Below, in pieces: positions 36,672 through 42,158 of a stretch of 64,000 bases of DNA (position 1 is the stretch's first letter; each line of letters starts with the position of its first letter). The stretch comes from Gammaproteobacteria bacterium (GTDB taxonomy: Bacteria > Pseudomonadota > Gammaproteobacteria > HTCC5015): contig BPKE01000001.1 of NCBI GenBank assembly GCA_026004975.1, positions 437,788 through 501,787 on the forward strand, given 5' to 3'. The notes beneath the pieces were generated by a model that worked only from the letters and a program-made list of their open reading frames with translations, was not told the origin of the DNA and did no database searches. The position numbers were made by a program, and so were the translations under genes.

Positions 36672-37208
36672 ATGACCTGGCCCGTGCCCGTGATCGGTTT
36701 CGCCGCCTACAGCGGCACCGGCAAGACCACCCTGCTCAAGGCCGTGCTGCCGCGGCTGCGCGCCCGCGGCCTGCGCATCGGCATGATCAAGCACGCCCAT
36801 CACCAGTTCGACATCGACAAGCCGGGCAAGGACAGCTACGAGCTGCGCCGCGCCGGCGCCCAGCACATGCTGGTCGCCTCCAGCCGCCGCTGGGCGCTGA
36901 TGGTCGAGCGCGAGGTGGAACAGCCGCCGCGCCTGGAGGACCACCTGGCGACGCTGATCGACAGCGGCCCGATCGACCTCGTCCTGGTCGAGGGTTTCAA
37001 GCAGGCGCCGATCCCGAAAATCGAGCTGCACCGCAGCGCCCTGGGCCACCCCCTGCTGTTCCCGGGCGATCCCCTGGTGATCGCCGTGGCCAGCGACACC
37101 CCCCTGATCCTGCCCGATCACGTCCGCGCCCTGGACATCGACGATCCGGACGGGGTGGCCGCCTTCCTGCTCGAGCGCCTGGAAGAACACGGGCGGGCGC
37201 GCGCATGA
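36672..37208 (+). CDS. mobB: Molybdopterin-guanine dinucleotide biosynthesis protein B
   Basis: [77 protein letters not shown]. Confidence 0.93.
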
Positions 37209-38434
37209 GCGGCGCGACGAGGCCCCTGCCGGTCGAGACCGCCCGCCGCCGCCTGCTGGAGGCGGTCACGCCGGTCGCCGACGTCGAGACCGTGCCGCTC
37301 GCCCAGGCCTGCGGCCGGGTGCTGGCCGAACCCCTGCACGCCCCTTGCGATCTGCCGCATTGGGACAATTCGGCGATGGACGGTTATGCGCTGGCGGCCG
37401 ACGGCGCCGGGGCGGCCGGCGAAATCCGCCTGCCGGTGATCGGCCGGGCCCTGGCCGGGCACCCCTATCGCGGCGCGGTGCCCGCCGGCGCCTGCGTGCG
37501 CATCACCACCGGGGCGGCCCTGCCGGAGGGCACCGACACGGTGATCATCCAGGAGAAGGTCCGCCGCGAAGGCGACACGATCGTCTTCGAAGGCCCCCTG
37601 CGCCGCGGCGAGAACGTGCGCCGCGCCGGCGAGGATCTGCGGGCGGGGGAAGTCGCGGTCGCCCGCGGCCGCTGGCTGACCCCCCTGGACATCGCCCTGC
37701 TCGCCGCCCTCGGGCTGGCGGCGGTGCCGGTGCGGCGCCGACCGCGCATCGCCGTGCTCAGCAGCGGCGACGAACTCGTCCCGGCCGGCACCCCCTTGCC
37801 CCCCGGCGGCCTGTACGACAGCAACGGCCCCATGCTCGCCGCCCTGCTCGCCCGCCTGCCGGTCGAGGTCGAGCCGCAACCGCCGCTGGGCGACGACCCG
37901 GCCGCGATCGAAACCCGGCTGCGGGCGCTGGCGGGCTGCTGCGACGCACTGCTCAGCACCGGCGGCGTGTCGGTCGGCGACGCCGACCACATCGCCGACG
38001 TGCTGGCGCGCATCGGCCGGATCGAGTGGCACAAGGTCGCGATCAAGCCGGGCAAGCCGCTGCTGTTCGGCCGCATCGACGGCACGCCGTTTTTCGGCCT
38101 GCCCGGCAACCCGGTGTCGGCCGCCGTCACCTTCCTCGTGCTGCTGCGCCCGGCGCTGCTGCGCCTGGCCGGCGTCGAACCGCCGCCCGAACCCTTGCGC
38201 CTGACACTGCCCCTGGCGCGCGCGGTGCAGAAGCGCCCCGGCCGCAGCGAGTATCTGCGCGGGCGGCTGATCGAGGCCGACGGCGGCCTGCAGTTCGAAC
38301 CGTTCGCCGCCCAGGGCTCGCACCGGCTGGCACCGCTGTCGCAGGCCGAGGCGCTGGCCGAACTCGCCGCCGACCGCGGGGACACGCCGGCCGGCACCCC
38401 GGTGCCGGTGTGGCCCCTGCAGGGTCTGTTGTGA
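37205..38434 (+). CDS. moeA: Molybdopterin molybdenumtransferase MoeA
   Basis: DLPHWDNSAMDGYAL, RITTGAALPEGTDTVIIQEKV, VLSSGDELVPAGTPLPPGGLYDSNGPMLAALL, FGLPGNPVSAAVTF. Confidence 0.95.
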   Translation: MSGATRPLPVETARRRLLEAVTPVADVETVPLAQACGRVLAEPLHAPCDLPHWDNSAMDGYALAADGAGAAGEIRLPVIGRALAGHPYRGAVPAGACVRITTGAALPEGTDTVIIQEKVRREGDTIVFEGPLRRGENVRRAGEDLRAGEVAVARGRWLTPLDIALLAALGLAAVPVRRRPRIAVLSSGDELVPAGTPLPPGGLYDSNGPMLAALLARLPVEVEPQPPLGDDPAAIETRLRALAGCCDALLSTGGVSVGDADHIADVLARIGRIEWHKVAIKPGKPLLFGRIDGTPFFGLPGNPVSAAVTFLVLLRPALLRLAGVEPPPEPLRLTLPLARAVQKRPGRSEYLRGRLIEADGGLQFEPFAAQGSHRLAPLSQAEALAELAADRGDTPAGTPVPVWPLQGLL

Positions 38435-38877: not shown

Positions 38878-39007
38878 CGCCCATATCGGCTAGAGTCCGG
38901 CCATTTCGACCGGCGCGCGGCCGCGCCGGCGGGCCGCCGCGCGTTGCAAGCGCCCCCGGACCGGTCCATTATCAGCCCGAGACACAATAAAACCTGGAGT
39001 GGCGGCC

Positions 39008-40423
39008 ATGGACACCCTGACCTTCATCCCCGGTATGCCGATGCTGTCGCTGGTGCTTGCCGTGCTCGGCTCGATGGTGTTCCTCTACCTGGCGCGCCAG
39101 CCGATCCACGCCGCCTTCGGCCACCTGATCGAGGGCACGGCCGGCGGCCTGCGCCGGCTGGCCGACTGGGCCCGCCAGAGCGCCGAATCCCTGCGCGAGC
39201 GCGACCGCAAGGTGCTCCTCGAGTCGGGCATCGCCGAGGCCGAGCAGAAGCTCTACGAGGAGCTGGCCCGCGTCGAAGGGCACTACGGCAAGTACCTGGC
39301 CGACTTCCCCGCCGTGCAGCGCAAGCTCGACGACCTCATCGCCCGCCTCGAGGCCGACTACCGCGAATGCGGCCAGACCACGCCCGAGGCGCCCGGCTGG
39401 AACGACGTCGTCGCCTCCATCGCCAAAGTCAAGGGCAGCTCCGGCGACCGCGTGATCGAAAAAATGCTCGCCGAGATCCACAAATCGGCCGTGGAGGCCG
39501 AAAAGCGGGCCCTGGCCGAACTGCGCGCCACCACCGCCAAGCGCCACAAGATCCTCTCCTCGATGGCGCCGCTGTTGAAACGCATCCACCACCTGCTCAA
39601 GGACATCGGCGAAAAGGTCAACCTCGTCCTGGACACCACCAAGCGCATCGACCGGCACATGAACCAGTTCGAGAAACTGCGCAAGGGCGACCAGGACGCG
39701 GTGGACCTGCTCAACTTCCGCACCACCCTGCTGTTTTTCTTCTCGCTGGTGATCATCGCCATCGCCGCCCTCGGCGCCTTCGTCAACTTCCAGCTCATCG
39801 CCTACCCGATGAGCCAGTTGATTCCCACCGGCACGCGCGTGCTCGGGCTGCTGGTCTCGGACGTCTCGGCGCTGGTTCTGATCTGCCTGGAGATCATGTG
39901 CGGCATCTTCCTGCTCGAAGCGCTCGGCGTCACCCACGTCATTCCGCAGGTGGCGCTGATGGAACGCGGCAAACGTCGGCTGATCCTGTGGGCGGCGCTG
40001 GTCTTCCTGTTCCTGTTCGCGCTGGCCGAGGCCTCCCTGGGCGTGCTGCGCGAGGTGCTGGCCGAAAAAGAAGCGGCCACCACCGCGGCGCTGGCCGGCG
40101 AGGCGGCGGTGATCGCCGGCATCGACCAGACCGGCAGCCGCCTGACCGTCATCGGCCAGGCCATCCTCGGCTTCCTGCTGCCCTGGGTGTTGGCCATGGT
40201 CGCCATGCCGCTGGAAGTGCTGTTCACCACCGGCATGCACATGCTGCGCAAGGCCTCGATCGGCCTGATCGCCCTGTTCGGCCTCGTCTGCCGCATGCTC
40301 GCCTACCTGCTGGAACACGCGCTGCGCATCGTCGAGCACCTCTACGACGCCTACGTGATCCTGCCCATGCAACTGGCGCGGCTGCTGCAGGCGCGCGGCG
40401 GCAAGATGGAGGCCAAGGGATGA
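39008..40423 (+). CDS. Multi-pass membrane protein with N-terminal coiled-coil region, unknown function
   Basis: N-terminal TM, charged helical segment (SAESLRERDRKVLLESGIAEAEQKLYEEL...), then several hydrophobic segments; no family recognised. Confidence 0.75.
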   Translation: MDTLTFIPGMPMLSLVLAVLGSMVFLYLARQPIHAAFGHLIEGTAGGLRRLADWARQSAESLRERDRKVLLESGIAEAEQKLYEELARVEGHYGKYLADFPAVQRKLDDLIARLEADYRECGQTTPEAPGWNDVVASIAKVKGSSGDRVIEKMLAEIHKSAVEAEKRALAELRATTAKRHKILSSMAPLLKRIHHLLKDIGEKVNLVLDTTKRIDRHMNQFEKLRKGDQDAVDLLNFRTTLLFFFSLVIIAIAALGAFVNFQLIAYPMSQLIPTGTRVLGLLVSDVSALVLICLEIMCGIFLLEALGVTHVIPQVALMERGKRRLILWAALVFLFLFALAEASLGVLREVLAEKEAATTAALAGEAAVIAGIDQTGSRLTVIGQAILGFLLPWVLAMVAMPLEVLFTTGMHMLRKASIGLIALFGLVCRMLAYLLEHALRIVEHLYDAYVILPMQLARLLQARGGKMEAKG

Positions 40424-41085
40424 GGCGGCTCATCGCCCTGGCGCTGGTCGCGGCGCTGGCCGGCGCCGGCTGCAGCGACAACCGCCGCTACGAAACCGCC
40501 GTCTGCGCCCTGGTGGACGTCTCGGGCACCTACGCCGACCAGGTCGGTGAAGTCCTGCGCATCGTCAAGGCCGGCATCGTGCCCCAGCTGCGCCCGGGCG
40601 ACAGCCTGTTCGTCATCACCGTCGATTCCAACAGCTACAACGAGGACGACCTGGTCGCCGCCCTGCGCCTGGACTACGTGCCGTCCAAGGCCAACGACCA
40701 GAAACTGGCTTTCGCCCAGCGGCTCGACGCTTTCGCCGCCGCCGTGCGCCGCGCCCGCTACACCGACCTGACCGGCGCCATGCTGCTGTGCCGCGATCAC
40801 CTCGAAGACAGCGGCGCGGGCCGCCGGGTGATGCTGGTGTTCAGCGACATGAAGGAAGAAATCCAGCCCGGCCTCAAGCGCGAACTGCCGCCGGGCAGCC
40901 TGGCGGGGGTACACGTCGCTGCCCTCAACGTCATCAAGCTGGACGCCGACAGCGCCGATCCCGCCCGTTACCGCGCCCGGCTCGATCGCTGGGCCGAGCG
41001 CCTCGCCGCGGCCGGCGCCGCGTCCTGGACCGTGTTGCTCGACGCGGTGAAAATCCCGGAGTACCTGCGTGGTCTGGAACACTGA
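40420..41085 (+). CDS. VWA-like lipoprotein with MIDAS-type motifs
   Basis: Lipobox-like LAGAGCSD; CALVDVSGTYADQV, YTDLTGAMLLC, RVMLVFSDMKEEI match the three MIDAS elements; 4-bp overlap with the upstream gene. Confidence 0.65.
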   Translation: MRRLIALALVAALAGAGCSDNRRYETAVCALVDVSGTYADQVGEVLRIVKAGIVPQLRPGDSLFVITVDSNSYNEDDLVAALRLDYVPSKANDQKLAFAQRLDAFAAAVRRARYTDLTGAMLLCRDHLEDSGAGRRVMLVFSDMKEEIQPGLKRELPPGSLAGVHVAALNVIKLDADSADPARYRARLDRWAERLAAAGAASWTVLLDAVKIPEYLRGLEH

Positions 41086-41108
41086 CCGCCCGTCAAGGAG
41101 GTGACCGA

Positions 41109-42158
41109 ATGGACGGCACCCGCGACACCCCCACCACCCCGCTGGACGAGGAGCCCGCGCTCAACGACCTGGACGTCACCCAGGCGGTGCGGGTCAGCGA
41201 CCCGCAGGCCGTCAAGGTCGAGGTGCTGTCCATCCACGAGCAATGCTTCCCGGGCCACCCCGCCGACGACCTGGCGCGCGCCTTCGAGCTGTTCACGCGC
41301 GCCTACCGGGGCCAACTGCCCGGCTATCACGCCTGCGACACCTTCTATCACGACGTCCAGCACTGCCTGGACATCACCCTGGCCGCCGCCCGCCTGTTGC
41401 GCGGCTACCAGAAGGCGCACGGGGATCTCGAGCGCGAGCGCTTCGTGCTCGGCGTCGTCACCGCCTTGTTCCACGACGTCGGCTACCTGCGCCGGCGCGA
41501 CGAACCGGTGCGCAACGGTGCCGAGTACACCGCCGTCCACGTCACGCGCGGGGCCGAATTCATGCGCCGCGAACTGCCGGCCCTCGGTCTGGGGGCGCTC
41601 GCCGAACGCGCGGCCCGGATCGTCCATTACACCGGCTACGAGCTGCCGCTCACCCGCATCGAGCCGCTCGAACCCGGCGACCGCCTGATCGGCGAACTGG
41701 TGGCCAGCGCCGACCTGATGGCCCAGATGGCGGACCGCTGCTACCTCGAGAAATGCCGCGACCGCCTGTTTCCGGAACTCGTGCTCGCCGGCCACCATGC
41801 CTGGCCGATGGGCGCGCCGCTGCCCAGCTTCACCAGCCCGCGCGACCTCTTGCTCAACACCCCGCAGTTCTACCACCGGCACGTGCGGCGGCGGCTGGAG
41901 CGGGAACTGGGCGGGGCCTTCCGTTACGCCGAAAGCTACTTCAACGGCCGCAACCCCTACCTGGACGGCATGCGGGACAACATCCGCTATCTCGAACACT
42001 TGATCCGCAGCGGCGACCTCAACCCGCTGCGCCGCCGCCTTCCGCCGCTCGGCAGCGCCGCGGCGCGGGCCCTGCAGGCCCAGCTCGAGGCCCGCGCCGA
42101 GCGGCGCGAGCAAGCCGAACCCTCCGGCCGCCGCCGGCGCCGCCGGCGCGCCGGCTGA
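41109..42158 (+). CDS. HD-domain phosphohydrolase resembling class I cyclic-nucleotide phosphodiesterases
   Basis: TFYHDVQHCLDITLAAARLL ... FVLGVVTALFHDVGYLRRRDE; preceded by AAGGAGGTGA Shine-Dalgarno (41095-41104). Confidence 0.75.
   Translation: MDGTRDTPTTPLDEEPALNDLDVTQAVRVSDPQAVKVEVLSIHEQCFPGHPADDLARAFELFTRAYRGQLPGYHACDTFYHDVQHCLDITLAAARLLRGYQKAHGDLERERFVLGVVTALFHDVGYLRRRDEPVRNGAEYTAVHVTRGAEFMRRELPALGLGALAERAARIVHYTGYELPLTRIEPLEPGDRLIGELVASADLMAQMADRCYLEKCRDRLFPELVLAGHHAWPMGAPLPSFTSPRDLLLNTPQFYHRHVRRRLERELGGAFRYAESYFNGRNPYLDGMRDNIRYLEHLIRSGDLNPLRRRLPPLGSAAARALQAQLEARAERREQAEPSGRRRRRRRAG

Follow-up and report, generated by a model that had tools for sequence, protein, structure and literature searches.

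An obligate gene pair for a predicted coiled-coil membrane protein and a putative VWA-domain lipoprotein, widespread in Proteobacteria

A stretch of 64,000 nucleotides from a gammaproteobacterial genome, here called the window, raised the question whether three closely packed genes (A, B and C) encode a single envelope system that has not been described before. The original prediction combined a polytopic membrane protein with a coiled coil (A), a lipoprotein with MIDAS-like motifs (B) and an HD-type hydrolase (C) in one module, in which metal-dependent adhesion or sensing at the envelope would be linked to nucleotide hydrolysis. All three genes are intact open reading frames on the + strand with zero internal stops, and the coordinates (Table 1) confirm the tight layout on which the proposal was built, i.e. 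the 4-bp overlap, the 23-nt gap and the perfect Shine-Dalgarno sequence. The location between moeA/RDD and dsbB/lptG is also as predicted: xer, mobB, moeA and an RDD gene lie on the 5′ side, and dsbB, lptG and lptF are found on the 3′ side on the opposite strand, the identities of moeA, dsbB and lptF/lptG being backed by Pfam. A sigma-70 promoter scan of the region upstream of A detected no promoter. The GC3 of A, B and C equals that of the neighbouring genes, and by this measure no signature of recent transfer was seen for A-B.

Table 1. Features of the A-B locus and of the adjoining gene C, in window coordinates
Feature	Position	Strand	Remarks
RDD-A gap, 130 bp	38878..39007	+	presumed A-B promoter region
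Gene A	39008..40423	+	471 aa inner-membrane protein, predicted 5 TMs, N-out/C-in, large cytoplasmic coiled coil
A residues 29-241, predicted cytoplasmic coiled-coil hairpin	39092..39730	+	AlphaFold helices 30-120 and 147-226
A residues 262-285, predicted periplasmic loop with conserved P267-M268-x-E270	39791..39862	+	candidate B contact
A TM3-TM5, residues 286-403 (predicted)	39863..40216	+	near-invariant membrane charges E295, E304, E341, R348, E403
ATGA overlap of A stop and B start, 4 bp	40420..40423	+	
Gene B	40420..41085	+	221-aa VWA-domain lipoprotein (predicted)
Lipobox cysteine C18 of B	40471..40473	+	108/108 relatives
MIDAS motif DVSGT, B residues 33-37	40516..40530	+	
B T115, completes MIDAS	40762-40764	+	
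B D143, completes MIDAS	40846-40848	+	
B-C gap, 23 nt	41086-41108		
AAGGAGGTGA, perfect Shine-Dalgarno sequence of C	41095..41104	+	4 nt before ATG of C
Gene C	41109..42158	+	349 aa HD-domain metal hydrolase (predicted), resident neighbour outside the A-B module

Co-occurrence of the genes was examined by searching 274 whole genomes from the class of the window for A, B and C individually. B is present in 35 genomes and A in 39, of which one (G018) is a weak match that was judged spurious. Both genes occur together in 34 genomes, which corresponds to 34 of the 35 that possess B (P ~ 1e-37, uncorrected for phylogeny); a single B genome of this sample is without detectable A. In the class genomes the two genes adjoin, usually with the 4-bp overlap, which is the commonest arrangement among relatives. 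A wider scan of ~85,000 species genomes gave at least 595 pattern matches, at least 524 of which encode B relatives, and among the best 80 loci A is located directly 5′ of B in every testable case; the exceptions that were flagged are due to over-long ORF starts or an in-between start, and locus L174 starts at a contig end. Relatives of B were also found in Myxococcales, Desulfobacterales, Geobacteraceae and one Nitrospira MAG. Among cultured bacteria, Exilibacterium tricleocarpae carries the pair. The trees of A and B, compared for 108 pairs, are strongly correlated (r = 0.92; the highest value reached in 1000 permutations was 0.13), which indicates joint inheritance but not contact. A and B are thus an inseparable, obligate two-gene envelope module that is widespread in Proteobacteria. 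Carried by about 13% of the sampled class genomes, or roughly one in eight, the pair is nevertheless undescribed in the literature searched: it has no name, and there is no family model for A.

A few divergent A homologues were encountered as well. In L120 the B partner has no MIDAS residues, and in L121 the partner resembles a degenerate VWA protein by eye only, with no significance in a profile comparison with B. No B was detected with the A homologues of L122, L123 and L124. An apparently decayed copy of the A gene, in pieces and frames with in-frame stops, is present in G278 (C7:253485-254899; L240, L245, L247, L248).

For gene C the same survey gave a different result. Strong homologues occur in 15 genomes, four of which, including that of the window, also have A-B (P = 0.14 for the overlap), and in all three of the other shared genomes C and A-B are on different contigs. 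Only one of the 120 A-B loci (L170) has a C relative within the locus stretch examined, ~4 kb away and on the opposite strand. Moreover, a complete genome of the same family (G002) has the gene order dsbC-xer-mobB-RDD-C-dsbB-lptG-lptF-pepA, which is the order of the window without moeA and A-B; the gap between RDD and C is about 144 bp in this genome vs 2.2 kb in the window. Genome G003 keeps the segment C-dsbB-lptG-lptF-pepA, and none of the three further genomes examined from the order has A or B. The collinear region in G002 indicates that A-B was inserted beside, or lost from beside, a resident gene. As an aside, moeA (37205-38434 in the window) is likewise missing from this region, so that the stretch in the window gained or lost more than A-B.

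C itself appears to be an HD protein, as expected from the original reading. It has a weak match to the Pfam HD profile (E 5e-4, just under its cut-off), and the residues H81-D82, H85, H122-D123, H144, H173 and D202, which form an HD metal-ligand pattern, are invariant in an alignment of 10 sequences. The HD/HDIG metal-site pattern is shared with the Npun_R2479-family HD metalloproteins (NCBIfam NF045583, E 6e-14), whereas the score of C is far below the curated cut-off for that family (52 of 400 bits). Co-transcription with A-B is plausible in the window genome in view of the common strand, the 23-nt gap and the strong Shine-Dalgarno sequence. However, since a complete genome from the same family has C in this neighbourhood with no A-B beside it, and since C is unlinked to the pair across the class sample and shows no significant co-occurrence with it, we rejected C as a module partner, and a system in which A, B and C jointly couple envelope sensing to nucleotide hydrolysis is very improbable. 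The proposed link to nucleotide hydrolysis loses its support because C is outside the A-B module, and the claim of an undescribed envelope system holds for the conserved A-B pair, for which no published description was found, but not for the three genes together. A-B is a portable pair situated directly upstream of resident gene C, and this position alone makes C look coupled to A-B. The HD gene illustrates that operon-like packing in one genome can mislead.

The features predicted for B were recovered in full. The sequence starts with a signal peptide containing a lipobox with Cys18, and the MIDAS residues (D33-x-S35-x-T37, T115 and D143) are intact in the window and conserved in 105-108 of 108 relatives; overall, conservation of MIDAS and lipobox in the B family is 97-100%. 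An AlphaFold model (pLDDT 94) displays the VWA alpha/beta fold, and a Foldseek search with this model returned VWA domains of adhesins, integrins, the anthrax-toxin receptor, TFIIH and NorD (E about 1e-6, prob 1.00). The Pfam VWA_2 profile is matched by 22 of 33 B relatives, and the window protein itself is below detection with this profile. On the basis of sequence and model, B is best described as a lipidated VWA domain with an intact MIDAS that is predicted to bind metal. It shares the fold and the complete DxSxT...T...D MIDAS with known VWA/MIDAS proteins (Pfam VWA_2 PF13519, VWA PF00092), from which it differs as a small free-standing lipoprotein that is always paired with A. In the family alignment, Ser, Thr or Gly usually follows the lipid cysteine, and Asp does so rarely; by the general rules of Lol sorting, this would suggest delivery of most members to the outer membrane instead of retention in the inner membrane. 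We do not favour adhesion, one of the two roles originally suggested, as the small lipoprotein B has the architecture of neither a surface-exported protein nor an adhesin; the other, sensing, gains from a two-component system that is linked to the pair elsewhere (see below).

For gene A, searches of Pfam, NCBIfam, PADLOC and the PDB gave no convincing relative. The sole sequence matches in the PDB, to angiotensin-receptor fusion constructs, involve a hydrophobic stretch and were judged to be due to chance, and Foldseek searches with the A model gave nothing below E 0.04, the best matches being coiled coils. Family-wide hydropathy and charge patterns suggest five transmembrane segments, TM1 (12-28), TM2 (243-261), TM3 (286-306), TM4 (328-350) and TM5 (384-403). 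In this prediction a cytoplasmic coiled coil separates TM1 from TM2, and a positively charged loop in the cytoplasm connects TM3 with TM4. Loops on the periplasmic side join TM2 to TM3 and TM4 to TM5, the second of them being acidic, and TM5 is followed by an amphipathic C-terminal helix. The coiled coil comprises ~210 residues and is positively flanked, with a positive-inside pattern after TM1. This topology agrees with an AlphaFold model (mean pLDDT 85), and we infer that A spans the inner membrane five times and extends a large coiled coil into the cytoplasm, in line with the polytopic, coiled-coil protein originally predicted. Near-invariant residues include N260, P267, E295, E304, E341, R348, Q384, E403 and D447. 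Position 270 in the first periplasmic loop is occupied by Glu in 102 of 108 relatives, by Gln in the window and by Ala in four relatives that keep the MIDAS. The loss of E270 in three A homologues without B is suggestive of a MIDAS ligand, but such a role is not strict given the Ala and Gln pairs. An obligate ligand function of E270 was rejected, as five A-B pairs have Ala or Gln here together with an intact MIDAS.

Indications of function come from genes linked to the pair. At 17 A-B loci, which span the window's own subfamily and a more distant subfamily, an OmpR-type response regulator and a histidine kinase are encoded, most often divergent from A. The N-terminus of this kinase was found in nine of the 274 class genomes, all nine of which also carry A-B, no more than about 8 kb away (P ~ 8e-9, uncorrected). 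Between the regulator gene and A there is a direct repeat, TTTCAC-N5-TTTCAC, with an 11-bp period, which is exact in 12 of the 17 two-component loci vs none of the 98 A-B loci without the system. A stricter version of the pattern has one perfect match genome-wide in each of the genomes G055, G095, G215 and G266, namely this site, so that A-B looks like the main or only target of the regulator where the system exists. The repeat is a candidate OmpR-type operator, to which the regulator would bind according to the pattern. These findings strongly suggest that, in a subset of genomes, A-B is controlled by a two-component system dedicated to the pair. Most A-B loci, that of the window included, are without such a system, and kinase signalling therefore cannot be the universal function of the pair; the window assembly (64% complete) revealed no kinase, and the repeat is absent from the 130-bp gap upstream of A. 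Where they are present, the regulator, the kinase and the single operator-like site provide a direct handle on the signal that induces A-B and thereby on its function.

At several loci (L135, L140, L144, L145, L147, L149, L150 and L154) a small hydrophobic ORF of 53-74 aa, for example MVTEIIKAWSNVSGITAALWYSGFVAKRHGWSMARKAFLLHY..., is found between the repeat and A, and may encode an extra component.

The kinases linked to A-B have two TMs with a short loop of about 10-25 residues between them (16 of 16 examined) and no periplasmic sensor domain. This plan is shared with BceS, an intramembrane-sensing kinase (PMC3023708, PMC10314905). Similar to the Bce modules (BceRS-BceAB), the subset of A-B loci with a two-component system combines such a kinase with an OmpR-type regulator and, if the regulator binds the repeat, with an operator only before the adjacent membrane complex. 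Unlike Bce modules, A-B has no ABC transporter, is found in Proteobacteria, and is without the two-component part in the window; A has no match to ABC or FtsX-like families, so it does not qualify as a BceAB-type transporter. The likeness is one of regulatory logic only and serves as a working analogy, not as an assignment to this group. Among the best NCBIfam matches of the A-B-linked proteins are the dedicated sortase regulators of proteobacteria, with scores far below the curated cut-offs, i.e. 45-52 bits vs 336 for the regulator (TIGR03787) and about 40 bits vs 612 for the kinase (TIGR03785). The VWA protein that is the target of the sortase-regulator system has an architecture other than that of B.

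Our tentative reading, to which we assign somewhat less than an even chance, is that A-B is a MIDAS-dependent envelope sensing or response complex that is induced by its own regulator in some lineages. B would be periplasmic and tethered to the membrane, with its Mg2+-type MIDAS clasping an acidic partner, for which an envelope ligand and the conserved loop of A on the periplasmic side are the candidates. On binding or letting go, B might then shift the state of the charged membrane core and the coiled coil of A, by which the pair would sense or relieve an envelope perturbation. In the lineages whose dedicated OmpR-type regulator appears to have no detectable target other than A-B, the kinase probably reads the state of A-B in a Bce-type manner, since it has only a short periplasmic loop of its own. 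Against this reading are the replacements of the candidate ligand E270, both in the window and in MIDAS-keeping relatives, the few A homologues without detectable B or with a MIDAS-less B, and the one B genome in which A was not detected. In a bolder form, which we consider rather doubtful, A-B would represent an undescribed class of envelope signalling devices, with a MIDAS domain that is anchored by its lipid and works as a metal-dependent clutch, engaging a coiled-coil protein of the inner membrane; with a kinase present, A-B itself would be the sensor for the sensor-less kinase, as a Gram-negative counterpart of Bce without the ABC transporter.

The near-invariant charged residues in or at the TMs of A (E295, E304, E341, R348 and E403) also fit a transporter or ion channel, in which the helices of A would move ions or a substrate and B would be a periplasmic metal-dependent gate or a substrate-binding lipoprotein, and the Bce-like kinase link is compatible with a transporter that reports its own activity. 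However, A shows no relation to known transporter families or folds, the pair is not linked to an ATPase or any other energiser, and the coiled coil is unusually large for a transporter. We regard this alternative as unlikely.

Less probable than transport is a role of A-B in anti-phage defence or inter-bacterial conflict, which we consider quite improbable. The patchy distribution of the pair, its varying neighbourhoods and its absence in close relatives would be in line with such a role, whereas the recurring neighbours are housekeeping genes and dedicated two-component regulation is found in some lineages. Furthermore, A-B has no PADLOC match, plasmids gave no match to A or B, and phages gave no match to A.

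Apart from the sensing or response complex that we prefer, known systems with VWA proteins have to be considered. The FtsZ-like-1/VWA membrane-remodelling systems of Makarova and Koonin (PMC2875224) likewise combine a VWA protein with membrane partners and are patchily distributed. They differ from A-B in the tubulin-like protein, which is missing from A-B genomes: Tubulin_2 (PF13809) occurs in just three of the 274 class genomes, none of them with A-B. It is thus extremely improbable that A-B is a part of these systems. As for MoxR-VWA systems, no MoxR AAA+ ATPase is adjacent to the pair in the window (moeA, RDD, C, dsbB, lptG/F) or among the recurring neighbours that were read. As the combination of a VWA protein and a membrane partner, A-B is of a known type, but it is neither an FtsZ-like-1/VWA system, nor a MoxR-VWA system as judged by neighbourhood, nor a known defence system.

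Additional genes were observed at some A-B loci. In L180, L201 and L205 a second, larger VWA gene is located shortly downstream of A-B, together with a predicted PEP-CTERM-like neighbour; the second VWA protein of L180 consists of 586 aa and weakly matches TIGR03788 (marine proteobacterial sortase target). The A-B contig of L169 is labelled as a Klebsiella pneumoniae MAG and carries a tricarboxylate-receptor-like neighbour, which was encountered in betaproteobacterial loci as well; this bin is probably mislabelled. In several lineages DUF1249 (yqiB-like) genes adjoin A-B or are found near it, namely in L094, L101, L116, L120, L157, L158, L165 and L203, perhaps reflecting a shared chromosomal site.
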